Below, in pieces: positions 20,636-56,100 of a stretch of DNA of 64,000 bases. Made by a program: the position numbers and the translations under genes. How positions within the stretch are numbered: the stretch's first letter is position 1; each line of letters starts with the position of its first letter. The notes below the pieces were generated by a model that saw only the letters and a list, made by a program, of their open reading frames with translations, had not been told where the DNA came from and made no database searches. The stretch is from Paramacrobiotus metropolitanus (lineage: Eukaryota; Tardigrada; Eutardigrada; Parachela; Macrobiotidae), in assembly GCF_019649055.1 (NCBI RefSeq), contig NW_026570329.1, forward strand, positions 124,001 through 188,000, read 5' to 3'.

Positions 20636-23358
20636 ATGGCTCTCGCCACGCGCAACGTGCTACCGGCGTTTGCTGTACTTGTACTGCTAAACAAATTTAC
20701 ACTGATTGCCTCTGAACCAGGAACCATTCAGCTTACTCCAGCGATAACGTTAAAGGGAGAAGCCTGTTGTTCGACTGGAGATAGCAATGGATACGTGTAT
20801 TATGGAATACGCTACGCTACCGCCCGACGTTTTGAGGTAGCGCAATTTCCTAAAAGCATTTTGCGCGGGGATTTATAACATTAATGGTTGCAGCATTCTA
20901 TGGCGAATGAGAACTACTCGTATTTGCGCAATACCACCCGGCCCAAACGCGGACCCGTGTGTCCGCAAACTTCCCCAGAAGCGGATGGAAACGTTGTATC
21001 CGAAGACTGTCTTTACCTGGACGTTTATGTTCCGCCGATAAACCCACGTGAACGTCCAAAATTTCCTGTACTGATGTTTATTTATGGCGGGGGATTACAA
21101 GGTCCCACATGATTGTGTATGACATACTTGAACTTCACAGCCAAATACTTGACTCGTGTAGAGGGCTCCAAGGACACATACAGTCCATCGTCGCTGGTGG
21201 CTTACATCAACGCCATCGTAGTGTTTATCGATTACCGTGTTGGTGCTTTTGGTTAGTTTTTGCACACAAGCAGTTTTCCTGGAGCTCCTAATAAAGTATA
21301 ATATTTTAGGTTTCCTGAGTACCGGCGATGCAACCGCCTCCGGAAATTATGGGCTGGGCGACTGTAAAGTAGCGGTTAAGTGGATCCAGAAGCACATCGG
21401 GAAGTTCGGCGGGGACCCTGCTGCATTGACGGTGTTCGGGGAAAGCGCGGGAGCGGCACTAACATCGGCACTCATTGTCGGTCGTGATCAATCGATTCGA
21501 AGTAAACGTCCACCTGGTTTCAAAGATCTCCGTAATGCCTATTTTGTGTGTTAGACTCACTGCGCGCGGTGGCGCTGTTAAGCGGTAGCATCACGACCGA
21601 CATCCTTTATGACCGCGAACCGAAAGAGACGGCTATGGGCGTGGCCCAGAAAGCCGGTTGCCCGACGGAAAGTTCCGCAGTTATGATCGGGTGCCTGAAG
21701 CAGTTGCCAGTTGAGGACCTTTTGCGTTATTCGCCACAAATTTCTGATAGGCCGGTAAAAGAAGTTAAAATTTGAGTTGTCAGCAGTGTACAGACTTTCT
21801 TTATTAGACGATGCCGTTTGGATTTGCGGTGGACGGTGAACACATTCCGGATATTCCAATTCGAGCGTTAAAAGCAGCTGCCGCTTTGTCGGCTCCAGCC
21901 CCTCACATTCTAACAGGATATCTGCGGGAAGACTCATCATATCTCTTGCAAAGTAAATAGTTTAAAGAACTATATTCTCGCCCGGTTTTAAAACTGTTGG
22001 GTTTCAAAACTATTGTATACTGATGTTTTCAAAACTACTGTATATTGATGTAAAATTGTCATGCGTTTATTTCAAATACCGTAGCTTTTTACGAGTTTTG
22101 CTTGTAAGTACGTCCTTTTACTGTTTTCTTCACCCTATTCTTGTAAAGTACATGCATGTTGTACAGGGGCATGCATACAACTGGTAAAGACTACGAGTAC
22201 AATACATTTACACGCATAATATAGATAGAAGTTTAATCGAATATCGTGTTATTTGGGCGAAACACGGGAACGAGGCCATTAAGTAATGCCGTTACGAACC
22301 AATCGCTTCGTTTGCCATCGATTACTTTCTATATAAAAGGTTATGCAATCGCAGCTCTGGACCTGATGAACCTGAATGTGTTGTTCTGTTGGCAGGTGTT
22401 GAACCTGATTTAGTCGACCCGAGCAAGCCTTTAACGGTGGACCAGCTGCGGGATGTTGTGGGTAAACGCTATCTTCCGCTCAAAGATGGCGGCTTGGCCA
22501 ATTGCTCCTCATTAGACACTACCGTTGTCACGCGGATTCTCCAACAATACAACATCACCGACTCCAACAACCGAGACGACACTCTCTGGAAATTTTTCCA
22601 TGTAACCCAGTTATGGAAATGCGCGTGTAGATTTTTGTCGCACTCTTAGCCGATAGCTGTACAATTCACGATAACATTTTTCAGTTCTCTACTCTAAGCA
22701 ATAATAGGCGGACGAAAGAGAAGTATTATCCTAAATTAGGAACATAACTTGATTATTCACTTTGTTCAGCTGGCCACGGACGCACAGTTTGGTCACCAAG
22801 CGGTCCAGGAAGCGCTGCTGTATGCCAGCAGTGCGGGCACCAGCCAAGTATACCGCGTTGATTACAATCCTGGAATGGGCATGGGTAAGAAAATATTTTT
22901 TTCTGGCTTCCATCAATTTCCTAAACGTAATGTTTCAACGAAATATGGCCCCGTTTCATAATATACTGAAAAACGAGGGATAGTGAGAAACAGTTTGTTT
23001 TTCAAATTAATTCTCTAGGGCCGGCCTGATCGTGACCTTTAAGAACTGATTATAGCTGACATTTTCAAAGGTTATTATTTCAGGGGCTTTTCATACTATG
23101 GACATTTTACACATGTTCAGTCCTATTCCACAAGTAAATCTAACTTTCGACGAGCAACATCTTAGAAGTTTTCGGGAGATGCTGCGCTAATTGGTCCATA
23201 ATGGGTACATTTGGTATTAGTACACAAAATATTGTAACAAAGGTTTCCAAATGCTTTACAGAAAAATGAATGGACCAAATTTTCGCGCACCCGGTAAATA
23301 CCTGCAGATGAACCAAGATGGAGAATGGTTGACAGTCGGCAACAATGACCTCCTGTAG
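20636..23358 (+). CDS. Carboxylesterase/cholinesterase-fold protein, multi-exon, 3' end uncertain
   Basis: The ATG at 20636 begins a signal-peptide-like N-terminus. Exon 1 ends at 20836 (ARRFE) and joins 20894 (HSMANENY). Family motifs follow in order: SEDCLYLDVYVPP with MFIYGGG (oxyanion region), VFIDYRVGAFG, GNYGLGDCKVAVKWIQKHIGKFGGDP, the nucleophile elbow FGESAG, VALLSGS, GFAVDGEHIPD, ATDAQFGHQAVQEALLYASS and VYRVDYNP, then GHFTH. At least nine exons are needed; one intron (around 21101-21139) would be under 45 bases and the last exon is ambiguous between frames, so partial decay is possible. The serine of the triad is present. A catalytic esterase of the secretory pathway is more likely than a neuroligin-type non-enzyme. 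Confidence 0.72.
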
Positions 23359-39800: not shown

Positions 39801-40154
39801 TACGTTAATCCAAATGCGTTGGTCATTAGTTTTCATTTTTCAATAATGTCTCCCATTGCTGGGTCGTCTCACCTTTCAGCTGTTTCTTGAGACTCGCATC
39901 CATTTTGAGCCAGTTGGTCTGATGATCTGTGCGATCGGTGTACGTTAATCCAAAGTACTCCTTCTCGCGTAGCTGCGATGCTTTACACACTTCGTCGAAT
40001 AGCGCTTGCCCATCGGCATCTTTCTGGAACGTACAGTTTTTTGTTTTTGCTGCCTTTGAAGCGACAACTCGTAATAATGTACGGAATAGAGACATACTGG
40101 TAGGTCGACTTTGATATCCTTTCCGTTAAGTAGGCGCACATTGGCTGACGGCAT
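36897..40154 (-). CDS. Protein 4.1 homologue (FERM, FA and C-terminal domain), 515 aa, 12 exons
   Basis: Exons: 40154-40098, 40023-39873, 39594-39522, 39444-39400, 39254-39072, 38930-38843, 38418-38083, 38030-37932, 37860-37777, 37645-37538, 37284-37174, 37109-36897; all phases agree (1548 nt). The FERM F1 lobe has KDADGQALFDEVC and EYFGLTYTDR. The F1/F2 join has the FERM signature EFRLKFYPP. F2 has ALTVVSELGDFNP and ARKLPLYGV, and F3 has GVSSSGL, WHHILKFSYRRHTFYI and AAKRLWKTSTEHHSFFR. An Arg-rich FA-like segment (RRRSFRMPVEKRK) follows, then T-rich repeats and a 4.1 C-terminal domain. Such proteins link membrane receptors to spectrin-actin and septate junctions. Oddities: a GC donor after exon 5 (CCCAG|GCTAGT) and a 140-bp tandem duplication that doubles the exon 2 donor. 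The usual spectrin-actin binding domain is not recognisable. Confidence 0.88.
39675..39954. repeat. Perfect tandem duplication, 2 x 140 bp, inside the protein 4.1 gene
   Basis: Bases 39675-39814 and 39815-39954 read identically as far as I can compare. The unit covers the 3' two-thirds of exon 2 with its splice donor and the start of intron 2, so the gene has two equal donors (at about 39872 and 39732) but only one acceptor for the exon. Identity implies a very recent event or an assembly artefact. Confidence 0.92.
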
Positions 40155-41200
40155 TTTGGGGGGATTGAGACACAGTATAAAGATAGACTATAATAATTTA
40201 TATAGAGACACAGTACATACAATAGAAAGACTATATAATTAGTCAGTTAAAAAGGATACGAAGGATGCAGTCGCCGTCGGATGGGAATCAAAACGGTGGA
40301 AAGAGGCAAACGTTTGATCAATTAAAACAGTGCAATGCTACTCAGCAGTCGAGTGCGTTGCACCTGTAAAGCACCTTACCAGGAATTCAGAAACTGAAGT
40401 TTTAAGCCAACATTTTGCGGTACACGCAGCTAATATCGCTTTGTAATTATCACCTCATAGACAAGATAATACATGTACTTTATGAGGAGCATGACTAATA
40501 AGTAGCCGTCAATCGCCGATAAGATAATGACTCGAACGTTTTATACGGGGCCGTTTAACTTGTAATAAGGGCCGTGAAGTTGGAAACATTACATGTGCTG
40601 ATAATTAATTTATTATGCAAATTTTGTTTACCGAACATGCTGCAGTACATTTAAAGGTAGTAGAGCAATCCTCTTTACGTCATAGAAATATGCTAGAAAA
40701 GTTGCATTTCTGCATTTTTGCCGTTTCGTGGTGCAGTGATTTACGATTACTACAACTGTAACATAGGTACACGTACACGTTAGTAATACACGTACACGAA
40801 CCATAATTATCATAATTTATTTGCCATTAGATCAAAGTCATCAAACTACCGTACAAGCACACCTGCATTTTCCCGATATCACCCTGCCGATAATAACTTG
40901 TTCCGCTTACAAACAGAAATTCTCGGGGATAGTCGCGAGAATTACTTTATGTGGCGTTAATAAAAATCTAAGCGCGTGAACTTCTGCTGTTTCCGCTTGT
41001 TTCAGCCCACCGGAAGTGCGTCATCGTCACGTGCAGCGTTCGGTCGGTAGAGGGCGCTGTAGCTGTCACGTTCATGCTGAGACATGCTTGCAGATTGTCA
41101 AAACTCCAAACCAGCTCCAACCAGCCGTTGATGCTGAACGCTGCGTATTGCACAGAAGGCCAAAACTGATTGGTACTAGTTATAAAACTTTAAGAATTCC
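40155..41200. other. Intergenic between the protein 4.1 gene and the palindrome region
   Basis: No supported gene. 40620-40860 is AT-rich. No GGAGCTCC occurs here; the first copy is at 41201. I looked for a transposon end (CACTA or similar inverted terminus) and did not find one that I trust. Confidence 0.4.
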
Positions 41201-41839
41201 GGAGCTCCGACAGTTCTAGAATAGTTTCGTTTACTCAGATTGGAATTTTAAGTTTCCCAGATTGTGGACCTATCATCACAAGTCAAGCCGTACGTCATAC
41301 TGGAGTGGCTGCAGCTTGCCACAGTTTATTTGATCGCCAGTTTCCTGACGGCATAGACTTGTGTAAGTGGTTGAGTGGCGTTGTTTTAGTTGGGGTTTTG
41401 CTGCAGGTTGAGACGATCGTGGGACGTTTCTGGAGCATCCGTGTTTGCAGCTGTTTATTCATCGCAATAGACGAGATATTTTTTGGGCTGCTCATCCATT
41501 CGTGCTGTGCCTAGTCAGGTTAGTCGTCTTTTGCAAAAGTTGGTAATATTGGGTTTTTTGCTCATGATCGCATTTCGACTGAACCAGTTTAATTTTACGA
41601 CCTAGTACAATTCTTCGGATGATCACATAATGTGGAAATTAGGAAAATTCGGAGCTCCGATGGTTTTAATGTTGATGTGCGTTAATTTCTTGATGGCTAC
41701 AGGTATTTCGTATCTAGTTTTATGACATTTTTATCTTAAATTGATAAAATCTCCAAACTGATCGACATCGACCGCGGAAGGGTGCTTAAGAATACGATCA
41801 GTCGTACTGACGCTAATCAACTCTCAGGCGACATTCGGT

Positions 41840-44056
41840 ATGGCAGAATCCAGCGAAGCGCTTTGTACGATATCATCGGATCTGAAAATCAGAAGCGAAA
41901 TTCTAAGTTTTTTAATTGCAGAACATGTTTCCGGCTTCAAGCATGGAGCATTTCAGTGCTCATCCGCCCCCAGATCCCAAATATTCGGCCAGGTTCCGCC
42001 GACGATACACCGGAGCCAACTACCATCAGCCGGACCCCGGTATGTAGTGAAAACACATCGGTTTCAGACTTGGATTAGAGAGTTGTAATTTTGTTTCTTA
42101 GGTACACAAGGCCTGGAAGTTCTTACTGCGACGGGAGAAAGCGTGATTTCATTAGAAGGTAAGTTAGTTTCAGTACTGCGTGCGAGATAGCGCTGTTTCG
42201 GTTATCTGCACAGTCAAAATGTTGCCTCTGAATTCGGAATAAATCTTTGTTATTGTTATCGAGATTTCGTAAATTAAATTTAATACGTAGTAAGCGCTGA
42301 AACGGCGATGTTTAGGTTCTTAAACAAAAGTTAAATTATTATTGTTTGTTTCATCTGTCTTGAGATTTTCAATTTGTAGGCGGTCACTACCTGACGCGTG
42401 GAGAACGGTTCGCACGGCGTATTGGCCAATATTACGCGCGAGGAGATTTCGGGCAGAGGAAAACGTTGGCCACGTGTATGTATAATTAAAACTTTGTGTA
42501 TGCTTTTGGTGTGATGTTGATTTAAAAAGTTTCTGATGCTTCTAGCCACGCAGACGTGGAAATTACCACCTGTTCCAGCTGCAAAGATTCCGCAAGCAGT
42601 GTCATTCTATGTCAACGTTGCTGGACTCCACGTCGCTGTTAAGAAGTACTTGTACATTCCTGCAGATCTTGTGCGACGGTTTCCATCTATTGGGAGCTCC
42701 CAGGAAATCGTAGGACGCGGGGTTGAGAAACGTATTTATCTGAGTCATTACCAGATAATTCGTCTGTTGAAAGCTATTTCAAAGTACGTGTATCTGACGT
42801 CGGTCTACTCGTACTATTTTTGTATCGGTTGTTTCGCAGGGTGAACCTACCGACGACCATCGCTTTGCCTGCGGCGTTTACTCCCAATGGATGTATTCCA
42901 AGTGGAACGCAGACCAGGCTGTTGTGTTTATTGAGCTTATTTTCGACGCGGGAGCTCCCGATGCGCTCATCTTAGACTTGTGTCGACCTTGCGGCGTAGC
43001 GTTGAACGGGATTCTGACGTACGCACAATGCAGCAGTGGATGAATGCTTTTCTCACAGCAGCATTCTATAGAGGTCGTCTTGAACTGGCAAAGCAGTTAG
43101 CTATACGCATGGATTTGTATGGAATGGCTGTAAATATCCAGAAAAAACTGGACGAACGTCGTGACTATCATTTCTGGTAATTAAAATTTCAAATTTTAAT
43201 TTTAGATACACCTTTACTTTTTCGGTCAATAAGTTAGTGGAGTTACTGATCATATTTTCTGCAGCGGGCTATGTTATGATGCTTAAAGTAGCAGCCCTTG
43301 AAAGTCAATATTTTACTTTGTATTATTTACTTACAGGGATTACGACGCAGCAGCTACTTTTGTCCGACGGGAGATGCGGGACGACATGAAGATGCAGTTG
43401 AAAATGCGGGAGAAATCAGACACGTATGTATTTACCCAAATTTTATTGGCTTTTATTTTACATCGTGCGAATGAGGAGTATTTTGTATTTTGACAACAAA
43501 AATTAATTTTCATTGTAGACCGCTCACTAACCATCCGTGTGCTTACGCATCAAACCGGTGCAGGGTTACGGGCACTGTTCCATTTATAAATCGTCATATC
43601 AGTATTTGCGCTCGTAAACTGCCGGAAGTCAACTGCATCCCGTGCCGCGATTGTGGATTGCTGTTACCGCCCGGAGCTCCGGATGCACTCCACAATCTGC
43701 GGCACTCAGCGAATTGCGAGCGGCGTACCGTTGTCTGGACCGATGATCTTCTGCATACGGATGTTTTTGAGAAGCCACCGTTCCCTTCCGCTGGGCCGCT
43801 GGGGCAGCTGTATCTGGTGCCGGCTGATAATGTTGACCGACTGGTTTGTCAGGTAAATAGTATATTTTAAGATTATGTTAATAAATTTTAATAGTATGTT
43901 TTTAAAATTAATATTTTTCGTCTTTTTTTACGGTTGCTATTGCATGCACAAAAGTGGGTACAAAATAATTCATGCTTGTTTTGTAGGTGTTCGAGCATTT
44001 GGCTGATTCCGGGTGTAGTTTCATGCTTCGCTTGAGCGAAGTGCGCCGATACTGAA
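41840..44056 (+). CDS. Spliced gene of unknown function in the palindrome region (first plus-strand gene)
   Basis: A likely start is MAESSEALCTIS at 41840 with donor after 42039. Clear later coding blocks are: about 42546-42783 (TWKLPPVPAAKIPQAVSFYV, YIPADLVRRFPS, IYLSHYQIIRLLKAISK), 42840-43180 (FIELIFDAGAPDAL and, in another frame, MQQWMNAFLTAAFYRGRLEL), 43337-43420, 43520-43850 (CRDCGLLLPPGAPDALHN and HSANCERR, a CXXC...H...C zinc-binding pattern, plus LGQLYLVPADNVDRLVCQ) and 43988-44056 (VFEHLADSGCSFML). Most junctions have good GT/AG sites. The block at 42950-43000 changes frame without a plausible intron, so the gene may be broken. Palindromes within exons read GAP or GSS. No family recognised. 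Confidence 0.45.
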
Positions 44057-44349
44057 AAACTGAAAAGAGGAGCTCCTGTTTTTGGTGTAAAGTTAGGTGT
44101 GAGTTTTCATATTTTCTCCCGAGGCAGGACAGCATTATGCCGTTGTGATTGGTTATGCGATAATTCTGTCATTTTTCCTGCTCATTTGACTTTTCTTACT
44201 TGCCCATTTGACTTCTTTTTTGCTTGCTTTCTCACAGTTCCGCGGCTGCGTACTTTTGTTTGCTTGTTCTGCAATTGTTGTTGTGTGACTGTGTCCTGAA
44301 CCTATTTGCTTGTGTGGTAATGAACATTTGTACGAATTCTGTACTTTTC

Positions 44350-45150
44350 AGGGCCATATTTCTTGAAGTGTTGCAGACATGCGCAATTCTAATCGGATGC
44401 GTTTCGATTGCTGCAATATGTGACTTGTTGTAAGAATTGTAACCTTAGTGTCTCTCATGTTCAGTAGTGGCTTTTAAATTTTAACTGTGCTTCTACCTAA
44501 TTATCGCGGCTGTTAGCTTTTGTGGAAGTTGGTATGCCGGTTCGCGGAAGGATACATGAATTCAGTGCCAAATACTACACGGTTAAATCTGACCAAATGT
44601 GGTCATCCGGAGCCTGATTCCTTCGTCATGCTGCGCGATATTCGCGACCCTGGGATGCCGTGGTTGGGGTTTGTTATCGGCCAGACGCTTTCCTCAATAT
44701 GGTACTGGGCTGCTGACCAGGTAAATTATGTGGTAGAATAAAAACTAGGGAATTTATTGTTTTGTATAAATTTTGTAACGTCAGTTCAAGATGTAAGTAA
44801 TGATTGATTTTCGGGCTGTTAATAGAATTAACAATAATATTAATCGCGTTTTGTGTGGTGTAGATGATGGTGCAGCGTGTGCTATCCTCGAAAATTATAT
44901 CGGATGCCCAAGGTGGCTGTATTCTTGCTGGAAATATTTGAGATTGCTGCCATTGTTTATTGTGGTCATGCCCGGTATGATTAGCCGTGTGTTGTGGCCG
45001 GACGAAGTGGGATGCATCAATCCAGACATTTGTGAACGGATTTGCGGGAATTGTGTTGGTTGCAGTAATACTGCATGCCAAAACTCGTGATGCGTCTAAT
45101 GCCGGCGGGACTGCGCGGGTTAATGATAGGTACTTACATAAATGCTGCAC
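44350..45150 (+). pseudogene. Fragment of a sodium/solute cotransporter (SLC5) gene with frameshifts
   Basis: Three exon-like blocks match the middle of SLC5 transporters. Block 1 (about 44352-44430) reads AIFLEVLQTCAILIG. Block 2 (about 44520-44720) carries FVEVG, then in another frame GYMNSVPNTT and PWLGFVIGQTLSSIWYWAADQ. Block 3 (about 44860-45150) carries MVQRVLSSK and QGGCILAG, then in another frame [20 protein letters not shown] with VGCSNTA, then in a third frame [17 protein letters not shown]. Introns with GT ends remain between blocks, so it is genomic and not a processed copy. At least three frame changes make it non-functional. No GGAGCTCC lies between 44076 and 45512, the widest gap in the array. 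Confidence 0.85.
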
Positions 45151-45572
45151 TGGTGAACGATATCTTGTGGCTAGTTAGAAAAATCGTCGGGTTTGCGCTA
45201 CCACCGTAACAGTTTTATTACCAAACTGCGCGCTTTAAACTCGTTAACGTTAGCAGCTTCGTACCGCACGCTAAGTTATAATTATAATTGTTCTGTAACG
45301 TAAATGTTGGTATCCCTGGTGTCCGACTTGTCTGCTATATTCAACAGTGCTTCCAGCTTACAGTGTTTACTATTGATGTGTCGGTACGAGTACATCAATA
45401 AATTTTAGCATTTTTAATCACGTGCGGGCTATATGCATACTTATTGTACTAGTACAGTGCGTTTCGCAGGTAAATCGTTGAACTCTGTAATTAACGTTCT
45501 AATTAAAATCAGGAGCTCCTATATTAAAGAAAATATAGACACTAGATGCACACTAGATTGGCGTTTGAGCCA

Positions 45573-48100
45573 TTATAGAAACAACCAACTCATTACCAGA
45601 TCTGTCTTGAATGAGCATGCCGTTATTGCGAACAGAACCGGTTTTAGAACGGCCAGCTGATTAGAAATTTTGACACAAGTATAATTTTTCTGAAATAAAG
45701 TATTATTCAGGAAACTATCTTTGCTGAACTCGTAATATCTCCATGCTTTCCTCTGGAGAACGGTAGCGATGATGAATGCTGCTCTTCGGTTCACTAAAAT
45801 TATAGCCCGTGCAATGTACGGATTGCCCTTTTGATCCAAAAATACTGAGTCGACGTGGTTTTCTTTTCTTTTATAGGAAGCAATATCCAGGCGCGAACCA
45901 GATTCTGTGATACATCGCTGGTATGTCAACAGCTGAGGAGCTCCTCTTAAAATTCCCAATCCGTGAAGGTAGGCATACACCGGACGATCTGTGGCTTGCA
46001 GTTCTTCGATCGATTTTCCTTTTCCACACAGATATGCCGCTCCCGTGAGCGACTTCAGTTTTATTGCGCTTGCTGGTAAGTTCTTTGTCAAAGACTGACG
46101 CATCCGTTCCACTTCCGGTGTAACGTTGTCTCCAAAGCACGCCATCAAAAAATCAGAAGAAAGTCCAAAGGCAACCTTTCCAGCGATTTCCTTGTGCTGC
46201 TCGTTGGCCCCTTTCAGGTGAGATTTCATCTTTCCTACGTAGTCTTCATGCTCGAAAGCCCAGAATGATGTTGGATGGCCTAATAGATACACGTATTCGA
46301 CCAGATGGCAGCACATTTGGTGCAAATTATACGACATGCTTCTTTTGCCAAAAGTTTGTTGAATTTCTAGGCCAAACTGGATCAGTAGAGCGGAGGTTTC
46401 CAGCAGTCCAGCTTCAGTGATATCCTGACCGAAAAGATACTGTGTGGCGGCAGCAAACTTTGCGTACATGAGGAGCTCCTCTTCCGGCACAATTCCGTGC
46501 AAGCAAGGTAAACTGTAATACAACGTGAAAGCCATGTACATGGAACCTTTCCACTGGCCTATCTCATCTAACGTTTTAGGCTTCCGTAATGTAGACGGCG
46601 GTTGCAGTTTTTCTAGGAAAGAATTAATTTTTTTCCTGTTATCTGGCGTTAACTTCCACGCTGTTCCCTTCAAGCGATACTCCATAAATTTCTCCTCCAA
46701 CCCTTCGAAGCACAAGTGCATAGGCTCTACCGGCATTTGGGCAGGTAAGTTATAATCTGTCAGTTTCATCAGCTCAGACATTCCTTGCAGTCCAATAAAC
46801 TCGTGCAGTTGATCAGGAGCTCCTAAAACTGCTGCACGCGCACGCGCTCGCTCTTTCGTAATCTGAGCATCTCGAAGTTTTGGTAGACGGAATGGCGCCT
46901 GCTTTGAATTTACCATTGGGTAGCATTTTATCGTTCTTTCGTCTACGCCAGGATTCAAAAGAACCCTTTCCCAGCATATTCACAGTGCACGCATCCAAAG
47001 TCAGCCATGAAGGAGCTCATATGCGCAATCGGCCATCGTTCCTGGCTGTCAGCGATATAAGTAAGAACTCTCACAGGCAGTATTTTTTGTTCACCATTTT
47101 CCGTGTAAATAATGCCGTTTTGTTCCAGGTCGAGGAGCTCCTCCATAACTGGATGTAGAAGTGCCTGCTTCCAGTTCGCGGGTTGCTGCCATTTTGTTGA
47201 AACAATTTTTCACTTTTGTTCCATAGTCCTAGAATGTGCGGGGTTGGCCGTTTGTTTTTCACTGGTAAGTGATAGCTTAAAATCCATATATTTGATTTTG
47301 ACGATTTCGCTGTTGCCGCTCCATCGGAAAATAGCGCTATCGGAAGAAATCGTCCAAGCTTTCGGGCATAATTTTTATAAATCTCACCATCTGTAAAAGA
47401 AGTAATGCAATCTTCGTCTTGTGCTGGCACATTGTAGGAGCTCCTAAATTTGGCCGACTGCGCTAACGCTGTTATCCTTGGCTTCAATGGGAAATGCACA
47501 AAGGTAAACAGGCTGAGTGAACCTTTCGGATACTGGCTTTCGCATTTTGGGCAATTGGTAGTTCCTTCGGTCCGCTGTTCTGCGCCAATGTAACTGCCAC
47601 ACAAAGGGCATGCAACATGGAGGTCGTATTTTGGGAACATATTTCTTTTCGAGTCCCGCTTCCAGTTGGTACAACGTTCTGGGGAATTTGGAATTTTCAG
47701 GTAACAATAAAGAAATTAAATTCAGCAACGATTCCTGCGCGTCGTAAGATATGTTAGACTTGTCACAAGTCTTTAAAAATAATCCCAAAAATTGACCAAT
47801 TGTGATTTTAGCAGATGGGACAGGAACACGATCCCAGTCGTCGTGGAGCTCCACGTGGACTTCTTGTGGTTGTTGTTGAAACTCATCATGATCTATAACG
47901 ATAGTATTCTCGGCTGCTAGTGTGCTACCAAATAGATCTACTCGTACCATTTTCGCCAGGTTCTGCCGCAACAGTTTCAATCAACTCTTGCTGATCGGTG
48001 GCATCCACCCCGTCAAGAATTTCTGCCCAGTCGTCGAGGAGCTCCTCACGAACTTGATGGTTTCCTGCGTAGCACATAGCGGTTCAATCACACTTCCGTT
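45573..48100 (-). pseudogene. Tnp2/CACTA-like transposase, frame-broken
   Basis: The longest intact frame is 46958-45573 (461 codons), with MPVEPMHLCFEGLEEKFMEYR, a family hallmark, NLHQMCCHLVEYVYLLG, and SFWAFEHEDYVGKMK followed by HL-GAN. Upstream blocks in other frames give IGQFLGLFLKTCDKS with LLNLISLLLPENS (47800-47680), CPLCGSY with NCPKCESQYPKGSL (47620-47520, zinc-binding), GRFLPIALFSDGAATAKSSK (47360-47300), VLTYIADSQERWPIAHM and FGCVHCEYAGKG (47070-46980). Frame changes near 47930, 47645, 47205 and 46965 are too tight for introns. Seven to eight palindromes lie inside and read EELL, ELL or GAP. The family catalyses cut-and-paste transposition; this copy should be inactive as read. 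Confidence 0.82.
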
Positions 48101-48928
48101 CCAGATATATCAAGTATTAAATTCTTGATGAATTTGAGATTTAATATATCCGGAACAGCTGTGTTACTTGCCGTCGCCGATACCACCATCATCCCGATAA
48201 TCAGCGCCCAAAGCTGCTTCTGGAATTGTGGTTTTCCGTCTGCGGTTCCGGTTGGCATGCTGCCGAATGCCAACTTTACGCCTCCTGCGTTCCATTTCAC
48301 AAGGTAAACGATTTTATAAATCAATTTTAACTTTAAAATAGTCAATGTACAACTAAAAAATAAACAAACCTTCCTTCCAGTTATGATTAAAAATAATTTC
48401 TTAAATGAAGAACAGTTATTTTCACCTCCTTCTCTACGCGGGTGGATGTGGCGTGCCGAAGTTGCGCGCGGAGTCGCGAGCACAGTTTTGAAGGGTTTCT
48501 TTGTGTGCAATATTAGCATATTAATTCCGCTTCCGCTGAGTTTTGAGCGGAAGTCTTACTGGGAACGTTTCCTACCCACCGTTATTTATGAAGTTTTAAA
48601 CTGTATGTTTTGGAAATAACGGCTAGCTTCACGAGTCACCAGTGACATCGATAGCTTTATCCGCGGAGCTCCGTTTTAGTTGTTTCGTTTCAGTTGCTTA
48701 AAATGTTGTTTCTGACTATTTTATTTTTCATGTTGCAGAAACTGAGTTAGATTTTAAAGTACACCATTTTTTGATCGCTTATAAAAATGTGTAGTAAAGT
48801 TACGACTGTTCGGCAGGACCAGAGAATAAAATTTAATGCCTGCGTTTGTCGTTTAGCGGCAAAAGGAGGTAATTCTGTATGCATGCAAAATTCGCCGATA
48901 TTATTTGCATAGCCGCGGATATTTTCAG
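48100..48928. other. Spacer between the divergent transposase and DUF4806-like genes
   Basis: It holds the palindrome at 48665, an imperfect hairpin at about 48092-48152 (GTTCC-GATATAT arms) and short overlapping frames on both strands that I do not call. It likely contains the promoters of the divergent gene pair. Confidence 0.4.
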
Positions 48929-51429
48929 GTGCTGTTATTTCATTGTTCCACGATGGAATTTATCATGTTTCGGGAGCTCCCTTTTCTGATATCAAGTATT
49001 ATTACGCGGCAAAGAATCAGTTTGATGACGACTTTGTTCCGGGCGATAAGTACAAATGCTATTTTCCTGAATCGAAGAAGGACCACGTAGCCGAATTTGT
49101 TGGATGGTTTCCCACGGAAGAGCGAGCCGAAATGCGACTCACCGAGTTGCAGCAGCGGGTAAATATTATTACGAAGTGAATATTATTAATAATTAAAGTG
49201 AATTTTAAGATAAAGTAGTTGACTATACTTTGTGTGTGTGTGACTGTAATTTAAGGACGGCAAAAGTCTGGAGCTCCAGCAAAGCGCCGGGCGACAAAGA
49301 TGACCGACACGGAAATCCACAAGAAGGCGAAGCAGCCGGACGATAAGCAAAGTGGCTGCCAAAACCGCTAACGTTTCAGGAGCGAATGCGACAGAATGGC
49401 GTTGTGCTGGGGAATTTAGCAGGCAAGTTAAGAACCGTGCAATCTGTCGCTTGTTTAATGGAAGTGTAGGAGCTCCTTGCGATACTTTAACTAAAACATT
49501 TAGAAACTAATTTACATATTGTTCCACGCACAGAAAACCGTAGTGGTGGCCATCAACCGAGCACGTCCACAGGTAAACTTTCCTAACCTGTGCAGCTAAT
49601 GTGACTGCATATTTAAAGGGTAGCCATCTCCGCGTAATTTTTTGGCAAGATTTCTGTTCGGTAAAATAGGGATCACCAGCCTGGCATCAAAGGAGCTCCC
49701 GTTGCCAGTGAATCTGCGTGGAAACACACAGCTGCCACACGCTTTGCCGACAACTTCAACCAATGGTAGGATTTGCATTTTGCATCACCATTAATTTTGC
49801 ATAGCATCTGATTTTGCAGATCATTCGAACCGGCCGCTGGAAGAGCCGTCTGCTTCATATACGGAATTGAAACGTCGGAAATTCGCGTGCAAAACTATTT
49901 TAAATAATACAGCTGTTTTAATTTTTCTAGGAATGCAGCCACTGCAGTGTCCAGCGGCAGATGTATCTTTTGATCGTAAAGTTGGAAAGTCGACTGACTT
50001 TTACAATTTATGGGACACATTAAGCACTGGTATTTAAAATCAATTAAACAATTTAAAAAATTTCAAGGAGCTCCTTTTTTTCAGATGGTGCTTGGACAAG
50101 CCAGACTGATTTAGTGGAAAAAATTGCTTTCGATGTTAAACAAGCGGAACTGGATCGCGATGCATCATTCGGTTTAAATTATTTACAATGTCTACGGCTA
50201 ACAAAATGGCATATTACAGAAGTGTGGGAGAACGCTGCTGTCCAACAGCAAAAGGCGCAGGGATTGTCGGAAGAGGATTTATACGTGGCATCTGACACGG
50301 AGATTTTTCGCGCCCTGGCCATGGCGGAAATTCCGGTGGTTGAAGATGGGCCGACTCGCAACACCGCCATCGTCACGTTTCCACAAGCCGCTTTGATGGG
50401 AGCTCCTGTATGAAAACCATCTCGTATAACACGTTTGCTTTTAATTACAGCTGTGCATATTAGTGATATTACTGATTTCTGATTTTTAGCCGACGGGACT
50501 GCTAATAGCTCAGATGTGAAAGTGCCCACTGTACTCGTGAAGAACACAGCGGATATGCGTAAGTAATTAACTGAACACACCAGCGCTATTACTTTTCTTG
50601 TTAGCTGCTGCTTTGATATTTTTTAATCAACATTTTGTGACTTTTATGTTATTTTTGTAGTGAAAAAGGAGTTCCATGTTGTCCAGCTGCCGCAAATTTC
50701 AGACAACGCCGATTTGTTGGAGGAAGGGTTTCCAGTTAAATTCAAAGATCACCGTTGGAAATGGCCAGAAATAGGAGCTCCTGTTACGGCTGATGAAGGT
50801 GCGTTTCATCTCCTCCGTTTTGAAGTAGACTGCTATTTTTGTTGATTATTGCGATCGTTTAAAAACGTTTTACAGAATACTATATTCCTCTGCGCACCTC
50901 AGAGCGGGAATTTCATCTAAAGAATCCTCCGAGGGTGAATCGTTCTGCAATTACTCTGCGCGACCAGTTGTCTCCATGGTTTTTCCAGTTGGGAGGTCCC
51001 GGAAAGAAACACCTGGACGTCGCCTTTCCTGCCGTTTTTGTGGACGATGATAGCCATTTTTTAGAGGCTCAGTTTCTTAATCGAAAGATCACCGCAGAGA
51101 AGTTTTCGTGGTACTTGATGTCGCGAATGATGGGAGGAGCTCCTGGCCTCATTCGTTTGGCGACGCTGTACGAAATGCACAAACAAACTGCCACTAACAA
51201 GCGGCAGTATAACTTCTACGAAAGAGTTTTGGGAATTGACTTCTTCCGTTCTGTTGACAGTAAGTGCTTGTGCGACTCCTACTACGAATTTGTGTAAAGT
51301 AATGATTTTTATGAAAATTTATTTTAATTAAGTAAATCTGTTTCCTTTTCAGAAAAGACTCGGGATTTAATTCGCGCTATGGTGCCCACTAATTCGGTGG
51401 CGCTGAAGCAGCTGCTCGCGCTGCAGTAA
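48929..51429 (+). CDS. DUF4806-like accessory protein of the palindrome element, multi-exon
   Basis: Coding blocks with good splice sites: 48929-49158 (FHDGIYHVSGAP, DKYKCYFPESKKDHVAEFVG), about 50085-50406 (VEKIAFDVKQAELDRDASFG, ITEVWENAAVQQQ), about 50490-50560, about 50662-50798 (KKEFHVVQLPQISDNADLLE, HRWKWPEIGAPVTADE), about 50876-51258 (EYYIPLRTSEREFHLK, FPAVFVDDDSHFLEAQFLN, KFSWYLMSRMMGGAPGLI) and 51353-51429 (TRDLIRAMVPTNSVALKQLL, stop TAA). The order of a KCYFP-type N-terminal block and a C-terminal FP...L..YL...GG block is what I know from DUF4806 proteins; this is a pattern match by memory. After the stop the same frame continues for 43 codons to a second stop at 51555. Middle exons (49255-50030) are uncertain. 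Confidence 0.5.
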
Positions 51430-51567
51430 TTAAAGGCCTCCGGAAATCCCAAATCCATGCAGTCCCACTTTGGCCATAAGTTTGCCAACTGGATGGATAA
51501 GTTCAAGAACAACACGAAAGAAAAGAGCTGTGGACCGCGCATTTTTCTAACCATCTAAAGGAGCTCC

Positions 51568-53162
51568 TATTGTGGTGGTATTTGTTGCTATTAAAATAAA
51601 ATTTTGTTCCGTTACTTCGATGCCTGCGCATTATTGATATTTCTTCTGTTTACGTATTTCTGTTACCGGCGGTTACGATTTTATGCTGTTTATATGCTGA
51701 GCGTTGGTCTTATGATTGGTCGGTTTGTGCGTGCGCGGTACGGGCTGCTATGCCGTTTGAATGCTACGATAAAGTTACTGAATTTGGCGATTGGAGCATT
51801 TATTTCAAACCCAGCCAATAACTAGCTAGCAGTATGACGTCATTACACACGCCTGCCAACCACATAACTATTTCTGATTGGTTTATTTCTAACCATATAG
51901 GAATCGGATAAAACACGCGATGCACCAATGCGAGAGCGGACATAGTAAACAGTCCCGTTGATATGTGGAGTCATATTCTCGCAACGAGCTACGATCTCAC
52001 TTTTTTCGGCAGGGTCAATATTAAGTATGAGATAGTTGCAAACTTTACTAACCAATAACGTTTAATCAAATTTGTAGCAGTATAGTGTGTGGTTGAGCCA
52101 GAAAAAAAGTCAAATAAATCCAAGAAGGCTGTTAACCATAATAAAAGCGGTTTTTATGCACTTTTTGTGTTCGTTTGTCCAATAACAAACTTTGTGTTGG
52201 TTTGTTGACAAGTTTTGATATATTAGCAATACTAATTTTATGTGATAGATGTGATTTTATGTGATAGATGAAGACAACAACAATCAGAATCAGTTCATCG
52301 TTAGTTTTATATATAACGTTATGTAGTACCAATTAAAAATGAATTATTATATCGTAAAGCTTATAATTATACGGTAGTATCTGTATAATATTATTATAAA
52401 TAAATATAGGTATAAAGGTCTGCGATTCCTTAAGTATTTATTATTTAATCTGATTACCAGCGCTGAACAATTGTAGAAAAATTATTCCACATATCTAATA
52501 CATATAGCTTGCTGTCACTGCTATTGTACCTTACCCCCAATCTGAATCTCTGAATCTTTTGACGTGCGTGCCGGTTGTACGTAATCCATCCTCTACTTCC
52601 GGTCAAACTGATATGTACCTATACTGTACACTACATGTACATTCATCTTGCAAACGTTAAGCGACACATCTCGGCACAATAATTGATGTATTTTAACAAA
52701 TCTAGGTGCGCTCCTTTTGGATTAAATGTTCAGCTATGCATTCACCAAACATTTTGGAAGCCAAATAAAATAAAATTTTTTTATAAATACCACTGAGTTT
52801 GCAACATTTTGGCGCGCAGTGTACGGGCATTTCAGTACACCTGCTCTGACATAAATGCACCCGCCTTCGGCTTCCGTTGCCCGTGTGTGAATGAAACGAA
52901 GGCCATGCATGATCTGCGCGTGTTCGTTTCAATGTAGATTCATTACATGGTTTAACTGTTAACAGGTTACAACTTGAAATTGTTAAAATTTTTTAAACTT
53001 CTCATTCTGTTTAATTTTTTGCGAGTTATTTTCCTGAAAAGCTCACAGTTCAGTGAGTGTTTAACGATAAAGCGTTCCTTATCGCATACATCCACGTGTC
53101 TGTGACTGTCCATCTGTTGGATCTTGAAGTGGCAAGTTGGCCGCACTAAATTTTCGTCCACC
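51568..53162. other. Intergenic between the palindrome region and CTP synthase
   Basis: No supported gene and no GGAGCTCC. Bases 52130-52450 are very AT-rich with a short direct repeat (TTTTATGTGATAGATG twice near 52240). The last 150 bases are the leader of the CTP synthase gene. Confidence 0.45.
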
Positions 53163-56100
53163 ATGAAGTACATTCTGGTGACGGGCGGTGTGATCAGCGG
53201 CGTAGGGAAGGGCGTCCTGGCCTCCAGCCTGGGCGCCATCCTCAAGGGCTGCGGCTTCCGCGTCACAGCCATCAAAATCGATCCCTACATCAACATCGAC
53301 GCGGGGACCTTCTCCCCGTACGAACACGGTACGAGGTACCCAGGAACCCATCCCATAGGTTCCCTGCCTTCTCTGTGTGCTTTATCGCCTTCCCTGTGTT
53401 GCAGGCGAAGTGTTTGTGCTGGATGACGGCGGGGAAGTGGATCTGGATCTGGGGAATTACGAGCGCTTCATGGAGGTGGAGCTGGGTAAGGACAACAACA
53501 TCACCACGGGGAAGATCTACAAGGCCGTCATTAAGAAGGAGCGCAAGGGCGGCTATCTGGGCGAGACGGTGCAGATTGTCCCCCACCTGACCAACGCCAT
53601 CCAGGAGTGGGTGGAGCGGGTGGCCCGCATCCCCGTGCCTGATACGCGGGGGGAGAAGGAGCCTCTCCAGGAACCGCAAATCTGCGTCGTCGAGGTAAGC
53701 TGTAAACTCGTTGGTTGTTATATTTTATTGTTAAAACCATGATTAAAATTTTCAAACCTTTTCCCGATAATATTACGAAACCTTGCAACAGTTTGCATTT
53801 GGAAATCGTTCTGCATTTCTGAACGGATCAGCCCATTTTTGGGGGATTTTATCCCTGTTTCGGTGTGCGTTTGGATGGAAACTTGCTGGATTTTGACTGA
53901 GCCATTTCCTATTCTTATTTAACGTTTTATTTACTATTTTATTTACTTTTATTTATTTTTATCATTTTATTTATCTGGGCATTGCCATTTTGGTTACTTT
54001 TTGAAACTGACTCGTTTCTTTGTGATTTCTTTTATATAAGTTATAAGTACAATATTTTTATTCATTTTATGAATCCTTTTGGGTTGCAGTAGCCGTAGCG
54101 TAATTAATTCATTGTTTGCTGTTTGAGTCGACTTCCGATAATTTTTCTTGAAATTTCCAACGCAGTTCTCTGCGTTTTTGCTAGCTTTTTTTGTTATTGT
54201 TTTGCGAAGTGGGAACGAGGAATCGTTATGCGTAGAAGAAGTGTGAGTGCGAAATGATAATATTATTACTTACTTGTTAATCTCGTATGCTAGTGTAATC
54301 TAGTGGAGAATCGTAGTGTACTGGCGGCAGTGAAAGTGATCAAGAAATCAAGAATACGCAAAGCGCAATATCAGCTGTACAAAATTTTGGTAATTTTGAA
54401 AGTAGTTTTTCTGAATGCAGTAGGATGGTCTTTTTTGGTGGTGAGTGGGATGTGTCCGTGCAGAGTTCGGATTGCCATATGAAAGTTTAAAAACACTCAA
54501 GTTTAAAGTTTGTTGGAGTTGAAACACTGTATGTAATTCATGAGCACGAGAATTATAGAGATGTACTATATTGATAATTGTTATAACACATTGTCAGTAT
54601 AATATTTTAAGTTTATTATATTGTTATGATTTATTACTAGTACGAGAATAATACATTATAATTTATCACTCTTACACTACACTGAAGCGCTCGGAGTGTT
54701 AAACGGGGATAACCTTTAATAAGTATCGGAATCGGATACAAACTCAGTAGTCAGTGCCAAAAACAAAATAATTGCTTATTAAAGTGTTAAATTCATAGGA
54801 AATTGTAGTGTAATGACTGAAGTGGTAACTTGCATCGACGTGATAAGCGGGAATGTTGGTTGCAAAATTATAATTATATTGTGAATTATAAATTTGAAAT
54901 TACCGTGCCAATTTTTTTAATAATTTGGGGGCAATTCTCCGGAAATGATGGAGGGTCGCGTTTTTTACGAGTATTTTATTCCGAATAAATAACGATGGGT
55001 AAATTTGTTGTTAAACTGTAAAGCCTTGTCGATTTTGCGTAAAACATGTATTGATGTACGTTATAATTTGGATGTCTGATATAATTTTTTACTTGAAGAA
55101 ATAATGAAATGTTTGTAGCTTGGTGGAACGATCGGTGACATCGAAGGTATGCCGTTCGCGGAAGCCTTTCGTCAGTTTCACAATCGCATTGGAAAAGAGA
55201 ATTTCTGTGTGGTCCACGTCAGTCTGGTGCCTCAAGTAAGTTTGTGAATATGTACAAAATGACTGCATTTAAATGTTGGCTCAGAAGTTATTTATTTCCC
55301 TACGGTATTATTGCTAGAAATTAGGAAACACTGATATTTCCAGTTTAAGGAAACGGTTACGAACAGATACATGCTATGTAGTAGTAGTATGTACTACCGA
55401 TGATGTTGACGAAATGCGGCCTGCGTTGATTAACGTTAGACTTATCCAGATTAATATTAGACTTACAAATTTTTTTAACACGTATGTTAGATTTTTAATG
55501 TCTTGCTAACTATTAGATCTTTATTATTGGTTTTTAATAGATAAGATTTTTATTATTTTTAATATTTTACTATTGGATTTTTATTACTGGTTTTTATTGT
55601 ATTGAACTTCTTACGAAAATGTGGGTGGGTTGAATTTTTTCAGCCATATTTTCCAGACGAATTTATTGCTTTCTTGCGTTTTTGTGGTAATAATGATGTT
55701 GTTCTTTTCCTGGTAGATCGGCACCGACGGCGAGCAGAAGACGAAGCCGACGCAGATGAGCGTGATGGAGCTGCGGAAACTGGGCTTGGCGCCGGATCTC
55801 ATCTGCTGCCGCTCCATCAATCCCCTGGAACAGTCAGTCCGCAAGAAAGTCTCCGGCACCTGTGATGTCACACCGGAGCAAGTAATCATTATTGATTCCG
55901 CTTTAACTGGGCAGAAGTTTTATTAAATCAGTTATTTAACGACAGTAATATTTCACTGACAATATGTATTATTACGATATTTTAGCAGAATTTTTGAAAC
56001 AGTTTTATGAAAAAAAAAGTGAATTAAGCTGCCAGTTTTACATATTTACATAGATAAACAGTGGCGTCATTCTGATATCGTTGCCTTAAAATTTGCGAGA

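Follow-up and report, generated by a model that had tools for sequence, protein, structure and literature searches.

What does a short palindrome do that recurs every few hundred bases from one end of a transposon to the other, through exons and introns alike? The question is raised by the 8-mer GGAGCTCC in the tardigrade Paramacrobiotus metropolitanus, where we analysed a window of 64,000 bp (C109:124001-188000) together with the one genome of this species to which it belongs (169.8 Mb in 533 contigs). A sequence-only reading of the window had counted 24 copies between 41201 and 51567 and two elsewhere, and had taken the block for a mobile element with a Tnp2-like transposase. Our recount agrees, with 26 copies in the window, 24 of them in this block and the remaining two at 21281 and 61276, as against a mean of 0.26 and a maximum of 1 in 100 dinucleotide-preserving shuffles of the window. 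GGAGCTCC is the commonest 8-mer palindrome of the block and the runner-up occurs three times. We propose, with a probability of about 0.5, that the palindromes are cis-acting sites of the transposon DNA itself, for a dimeric and likely element-encoded protein that would coat, open or fold the element for its mobilisation.

Searching the genome with the transposase, we found two close copies, on C278 and C22, and on C19 an old copy that is interrupted. The points where homology to these three copies begins and ends were taken as the bounds of the element, termed family A, which extends past the earlier block by 319 bp on the left and 447 bp on the right. Its left end has four occurrences genome-wide, all in the copies on C109, C278, C22 and C19. 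The sequence-only reading had expected of a mobile element that other blocks of the same enrichment exist and that the palindromes stay while their surroundings diverge; the former are the C278, C22 and C19 copies, and the latter is seen in the C19 copy. Relative to C109, identity over aligned bases was 99.9% for C278, 97.0% for C22 and 82.0% for C19 (7,878 of 11,133 bases aligned), and GGAGCTCC was intact at 23/24, 24/24 and 17/20 aligned sites, respectively, compared with 98.4%, 79.1% and 22.4% of other 8-mers (n = 7,526 for C19). None of the 24 sites of C22 fell within its 4.6 kb of inserted DNA, and the single one of 17 sites in C19 that fell within 42 kb of unaligned DNA was located where an orthologous site is expected. 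In the near-identical C278 copy only four one-mismatch versions of GGAGCTCC were present in 11.2 kb, so the sites are nearly all-or-none. The old copy on C19 also holds an insert of about 20 kb (C19:146400-166600, L002-L004) with inverted ends and many open reading frames (ORFs), Polinton-like by eye. This insert contains 14 copies of TTTCGAAA, mostly near ORF starts and four times as pairs with a spacing of 59-62 bp, an arrangement suggestive of a promoter word.

It is the density of GGAGCTCC that is element-specific, not the word itself, since the word occurs at 1,470 places genome-wide (907 for the backward-read control), that is 1 per 115 kb, compared with 1 per 464 bp in the element. Pairs of GGAGCTCC spaced 180-210 bases apart number 12 in the genome, nine of them in the four family A copies, and one in the backward control. 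The sequence-only reading had likened the block to HIP1, a genome-wide palindrome of cyanobacteria that is linked to methyltransferases (PMC4390886). The look of the sites fits this analogy, and according to the available text of that source HIP1 likewise recurs every few hundred to thousand bases in coding and non-coding DNA, has alternative words in some genomes and has palindromic extensions. Unlike HIP1, the tardigrade words are restricted to particular transposon families in a single animal genome; whole-genome enrichment is absent (1,470 copies in 169.8 Mb versus 24 in 11.1 kb), and Pfam scans of the main ORFs of the element contained no methyltransferase, the host genome not having been searched for one. 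Codon usage or a single repeat family had been dismissed as explanations at the outset, rightly so: at least six of the 24 sites lie inside transposase ORF pieces, where the C109 transposase reads them in three reading frames as GAP, EEL/VEL or RSS, and the only tandem structure in 40000-53000 is one short repeat, a 42-bp stretch.

The claim that GGAGCTCC is the signature of such elements holds for its enrichment here but was too narrow, as this word is one of several family-specific dyads. We scanned 18 related loci, namely 17 more distant matches of the family A transposase search and C11 from a second search; the loci were picked by transposase similarity and the P-values of the k-mer scan are nominal. 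An iterated dyad was present in 11 of the 18. Family B (C57, C19:1008k, C122 and C116) has the consensus T-G-NNN-GTCGAC-N'N'N'-C-A, with TGNNNGTCGAC as its 16-mer, and GTCGAC lies within perfect palindromes of at least 16 bp at 17/19 places in C57, 16/17 in C19 and 15/21 in C116. Family C (C46, C214 and C105) shares the GTCGAC core, with 16 copies in 5.7 kb of C46 (arms of 4-7; two further copies past a 3.4-kb gap were left out of the count) and 10 copies in 3.45 kb in C214 and C105. In family E (C87 and C168) GGAAATCC or its complement occurs 12 and 13 times (nominal P 6e-19 and 1e-20), and in family F the gapped word GCGA-NN-TCGC occurs seven times in C9:2015k and 12 times in C249.

Symmetry extends beyond these cores. 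At the 24 sites of family A the bases flanking the 8-mer are complementary at 22/24 for position +-1 and 12/24 for +-2, falling to 5-7/24, the chance level, at +-3 to +-5, and the 22 outer pairs comprise 13 A/T, four C/G, three G/C and two T/A; the sites are thus nearer to 10-bp palindromes than to 8-mers. Pairing at +-1 is 22/23 in C278 (8.5 expected) and 17/17 in C19. Counting every GTCGAC in the B elements, whether its flanks pair or not, we found pairing at +-1, +-2 and +-3 in 18, 19 and 18 of 19 cases in C57, in 17/17 at each position in C19 and in 18, 17 and 17 of 21 in C116; the prediction from base frequencies is 6-8 (6.6-7.4 in C57). Chance level was reached from +-6 outward. At +-6 itself a T...G combination is over-represented in family B (L020, L022 and L045; 5/19 in C57 and 6/21 in C116), which may mean nothing because these are largely the same orthologous sites. 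Family C pairs at 16/16 for +-1 and 14/16 for +-2, C249 of family F at 9/12 for +-1 (4.4 expected), and family E at only 9/25 for +-1, around a non-palindromic centre. The arm letters vary between sites, yet the letters of each individual site are kept across copies, and paired replacements were found at 47845 in family A, at one B site and, for position +-1, at two of the four B/C sites.

Such pairing raises the possibility that self-complementarity is itself the function, the sites forming a hairpin or cruciform with the centre as loop, so that the arms need only pair. The variable arm positions of C57, family A and C249 pair far above expectation and orthologous sites change in pairs, and five B 16-mers are predicted to fold as single-stranded DNA hairpins of -3.5 to -6.9 kcal/mol, all of which would suit such a structure. 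Three family A 10-mers, however, have almost no predicted hairpin stability (0 to -0.6 kcal/mol), and GGAAATCC of family E has a non-palindromic centre and flanks that are essentially unpaired. Hardly any G-T pairs occur within the paired arms, which favours DNA over RNA pairing and argues against an RNA version in particular. To our knowledge, unaided extrusion of 16-bp cruciforms is not to be expected, which also counts against this explanation, and we regard it as unlikely. We give far less credit to the view that the palindromes are a functionless by-product of mutation, as proposed for HIP1, a methylase- or hairpin-guided repair bias making and keeping them. In its favour, HIP1 extensions likewise stay palindromic (available text of PMC4390886). 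Many copies nevertheless carry uncorrected one-sided mismatches, which disfavours ongoing arm-to-arm repair, site-specific arm letters are kept where the flanks have diverged, and only some element families have the palindromes, which nested DNA and close relatives lack; we hold this origin to be highly improbable.

That selection acts on the DNA of the sites, synonymous positions included, is shown as far as aligned sequences allow by comparison within and between families. In a four-way alignment of B pieces, where C116 is 69% identical to the rest, 32/35 site copies are perfect 16-bp palindromes. Among codons encoding the same residue in the B copies of C19 and C116, the third base was kept in 22/25 cases inside palindromes and in 284/506 outside (P 0.0014). 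Families B and C have GTCGAC in common at four orthologous places of the transposase gene, which cover all three frames. In group D (C11, C76, C320 and C9:195k), whose protein is about 40% identical to those of B and C and is encoded by intact ORFs of 759 amino acids (C11) and 749 amino acids (C76), GTCGAC is left in 3/13 sequence cells at those four places, and the changes are partly synonymous (e.g. GTC GAC to GTT GAT, residues kept); group D probably lost its sites rather than never having had them.

Short relatives with no long ORF keep the sites as well. The exact 16-mers TGGCTGTCGACAGCCA and TGGATGTCGACATCCA occur 30 and 31 times genome-wide, many of them in elements of about 2.4 kb without long ORFs, and their backward-read controls 0 and 0 times; for TGNNNGTCGACNNNCA the count is at least 363, with at least 236 for the backward control. 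Six clusters (L047-L052) were taken from among the TGNNNGTCGACNNNCA matches listed. Both ends were found in three of them, which are 2.3-2.4 kb in length and have a left end of about 290 bp in common with B (92% to C57), and the longest ORF across the six is 79-120 amino acids. Site columns identical to L048 number 62/64 in L052 (72% identity elsewhere), 54/64 in L050 (50%) and 55/64 in L051 (55%), site perfection here being biased upward because the loci were picked by motif, a bias from which the TGGCTGTCGACAGCCA and TGGATGTCGACATCCA counts are free. The fourth site is absent from L050 and L051.

The sites are also spread out. Gaps between B sites average 428 and 454 bp in two copies, with coefficients of variation of 0.25 and 0.26, and none of 20,000 random placements was as regular; in family A, C57 and L048 about 320-390 bp separate the left end from the first site. 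In family A the sites run from about 320 bp inside the left end to 447 bp from the right end, with the whole body between, and are thus not merely subterminal.

The family A transposase is related to family B and the other loci, and PF02992 was found in 11/18 database relatives of B, through which family A is assigned, indirectly, to the Tnp2-type transposases of the CACTA/EnSpm superfamily; together with the homologous copies, these relatives support the sequence-only reading of the block as a mobile element with a Tnp2-like transposase. A 3-bp target duplication is perfect in two of the four family A copies (TCA/TCA and AAC/AAC) and imperfect in the other two, and TAT/TAT flanks two of the three short B relatives with both ends found. 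CACTA/EnSpm inverted ends begin CACTA or CACTG. Such termini are absent here, where the ends are CCCTGCCGA in family A and CCCTCGTCA in B relatives. By analogy with TNPA in CACTA, the sites could serve transposition directly, a TnpA-like protein or the transposase folding the 8-11 kb element so that its ends meet. The transposase is of the same class, the short non-autonomous relatives, which need mobilisation only, keep the sites, and plant CACTA elements have family-specific motifs with dissimilar binding proteins (PMC2613891, as far as its available text goes). Spread over the whole body, however, the sites do not cluster near the ends, and group D apparently moves or moved without them, so that we consider this explanation possible if rather unlikely.

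A reader of the sites would most readily be sought in the accessory gene. Its joined exons in family A are 91% identical to an annotated protein of P. metropolitanus on C22 (LOC129586759), and two annotated proteins of this species, one of them on C19, match the accessory gene of family B. The DUF4806-like gene suspected by the sequence-only reading was not borne out, as neither the ORFs of the family A element nor the joined accessory exons nor the annotated accessory protein had a Pfam match. In B and C the accessory protein ends in a conserved module, VELFPGSGxYLPxxxFxNF... (L043:1301-1591, minus strand; L045:7418-7723, plus strand; L044:3-134, minus strand), which by eye recalls a BEN domain. 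BEN-domain proteins such as Insensitive and NAC1 bind palindromes of about 6-10 bp as homodimers and have insulator or chromatin roles (available text of PMC6911014 and PMC7764960). The likeness is one seen by eye; Pfam and PDB sequence searches of the accessory proteins returned no BEN match and so lend it no database support, and the model of the accessory protein (predicted local distance difference test score, pLDDT, 51.6) was too poor for its fold search to count. A host factor might instead read the sites, which would then either mark the element for silencing or serve a captured activator, in keeping with the failure of Pfam, PDB and fold searches to find an element-encoded reader. The word differs for each family, however, and is at background density elsewhere in the genome (as counted for family A), and protection in active lineages would not be expected of a silencing mark. 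We therefore hold a host reader to be quite improbable.

The reading we prefer, that of sites for a dimeric protein on the element DNA, starts from observed features: the enrichment is family-specific, the sites are conserved, they occur in introns, in non-coding relatives and, in every frame, in exons, they are missing from nested insertions, and they are evenly spaced, clearly so in family B and weakly in family A. The dyad implies a two-fold symmetric reader; sites everywhere, ORF-less relatives and exons included, imply that the DNA of the element itself is what is read; even spacing implies coverage; and on symmetry, ubiquity and spacing together we propose nucleation sites for a dimeric protein. 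Each site-bearing Tnp2-type family would have a two-fold symmetric word of its own, repeated along the full length of the element at intervals of a few hundred bases, and a dimeric DNA-binding protein, most likely element-encoded and with the accessory gene product as first candidate, would occupy these sites so that no stretch of the element is far from one. The bound protein would then coat, open or fold the element DNA for mobilisation, and short non-autonomous relatives would be mobilised in trans. As to the benefit, we lean towards access in silent chromatin, as for VANC of VANDAL elements, over direct organisation for transposition, because the spacing covers the whole body and not the ends.

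Several results weigh against this proposal. An iterated dyad was not found in seven of the 18 related loci, namely group D, with its intact ORFs, and C38, C117 and C27, where the best 8-mer P was not below 6e-9 and that one was a microsatellite. Spacing in family A is only weakly regular (coefficient of variation 0.62-0.65, P 0.01-0.02). Pfam and PDB searches and fold comparison of the accessory proteins brought up no reader, and a profile built from the B/C module has matches in these two families only, none in D and none in A, which has sites. That variable arm bases must complement each other is not predicted by simple additive binding of a dimer. The 20-kb insert on C19 acts as a control that has iterated TTTCGAAA words of its own, but these mostly adjoin ORF starts. 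In a gapped-dyad control scan, four of 52 non-element windows of 3.6 kb went beyond 1e-10, three of them in two tandem arrays and the fourth owing to AAGTCGACTT at C19:195.2-195.7 kb. The arrays have units of 21 bp and 31 bp (L005:3962-4716 and L001:6967-8309). At the AAGTCGACTT locus (L007:7205-7700), 0.5 kb contain five copies of AAGTCGACTT and one of AAGTTAACTT; a tandem array makes up only part of this locus, which may be another dyad-bearing element.

Coordinates of the features of the family A element are collected in Table 1. Differences between the C109 element and its C278 copy are mostly single-base gaps, which suggests assembly indel errors, and the reading frames should be judged accordingly. 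Some 1 kb beyond the right end of the element, at 53106-53742 of the window, there are ORFs that by eye resemble CTP synthase.

Table 1. Features of the family A element, in positions of the window (outer pair: the bases flanking each 8-mer palindrome)
Feature	Position	Strand	Remarks
Complete copy of family A, assigned to Tnp2-type transposons, 11,133 bp	40882..52014		homology limits vs C278, C22, C19
Target site duplication TCA, left	40879..40881
Target site duplication TCA, right	52015..52017
Terminal inverted repeat CCCTGCCGA	40882..40890	+
Terminal inverted repeat TCGGCAGGG	52006..52014	-
Tnp2-like transposase coding region	45573..47980	-	ORF pieces 45573-46979, 46955-47209, 47071-47715, 47444-47980; from ORFs and relatives
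Accessory gene, several exons	48788..51429	+	e.g. 48929-49159, 50085-50404, 50661-50798, 50876-51259; boundaries approximate; from annotated relative LOC129586759
Palindrome 1	41201..41208		outer pair C/G
Palindrome 2	41651..41658		C/G
Palindrome 3	42693..42700		G/C
Palindrome 4	42951..42958		G/C
Palindrome 5	43673..43680		C/G
Palindrome 6	44069..44076		A/T
Palindrome 7	45512..45519		A/T
Palindrome 8	45937..45944		A/T; transposase ORF, reads GAP
Palindrome 9	46472..46479		A/T; transposase ORF, reads EEL
Palindrome 10	46816..46823		A/T; transposase ORF, reads GAP
Palindrome 11	47134..47141		A/T; transposase ORF, reads EEL
Palindrome 12	47437..47444		A/T; ORF piece 47071-47715, reads RSS
Palindrome 13	47845..47852		T/A in C109, C278, C19; A/T in C22 (paired change)
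Palindrome 14	48038..48045		A/T
Palindrome 15	48665..48672		C/G
Palindrome 16	48973..48980		G/C; accessory exon
Palindrome 17	49270..49277		T/A
Palindrome 18	49469..49476		A/T
Palindrome 19	49692..49699		unpaired (A/C) in C109; A/T in C19
Palindrome 20	50067..50074		A/T; intron
Palindrome 21	50399..50406		unpaired (G/T) in C109; G/C in C278 and C22
Palindrome 22	50774..50781		A/T; accessory exon
Palindrome 23	51136..51143		A/T; accessory exon
Palindrome 24	51560..51567		A/T

Two further known systems come close. Plant CACTA elements carry family-specific repeats in their subterminal few hundred bases, bound by TNPA-type proteins (available text of PMC2613891), and like En/Spm the tardigrade elements combine a Tnp2-type transposase with an accessory gene, a 3-bp target duplication that is perfect in some copies only and a motif that differs between families; unlike them, they have termini of the form CCCT..., a word that is a dyad and runs throughout the element, exons included, and a reader that is a candidate only. 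In Arabidopsis, the anti-silencing VANC proteins bind YAGTATTAY and related motifs, which are dense and in one orientation in the non-coding parts of VANDAL elements (available text of PMC5735166). Common to both cases is a short motif that is dense in one transposable element family and at background elsewhere, a self-recognition code diverging between related families. VANC motifs are, however, asymmetric, confined to non-coding DNA in the same orientation and spread by tandem repeats, in elements of another superfamily, whereas the tardigrade sites are dyads, lie in coding as well as non-coding DNA and do not form tandem repeats. A paper on tardigrade repeats lists CMC elements and makes no mention of such motifs in its available text (PMC11071193), and in the open-licence literature we came across no transposon described as having family-specific dyads throughout its body. 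Iteration of a family-specific motif is thus known in principle, and the body-wide symmetric code is new as far as the open-licence literature searched goes. Only tentatively would we go further and suggest a new self-recognition code, of body-wide 'address' palindromes with family-specific words whose arms are selected to match each other and not a fixed consensus, read by enforced-symmetry recognition (cruciform-like or by an obligately symmetric complex), so that the element would carry a mark of its own identity at intervals of a few hundred bases.

If the proposal is true, animal DNA transposons can overlay their own genes with an evenly spaced code that is specific to the family and that their non-autonomous relatives inherit. 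Being readable from sequence, the code would predict which elements belong to which machinery and would provide a ligand for finding the reader, and group D, which lacks the sites, would be a natural experiment on the advantage that the code confers. That variable arm bases pair so strictly is unexpected from additive dimer binding and may reveal an unusual mode of DNA recognition.

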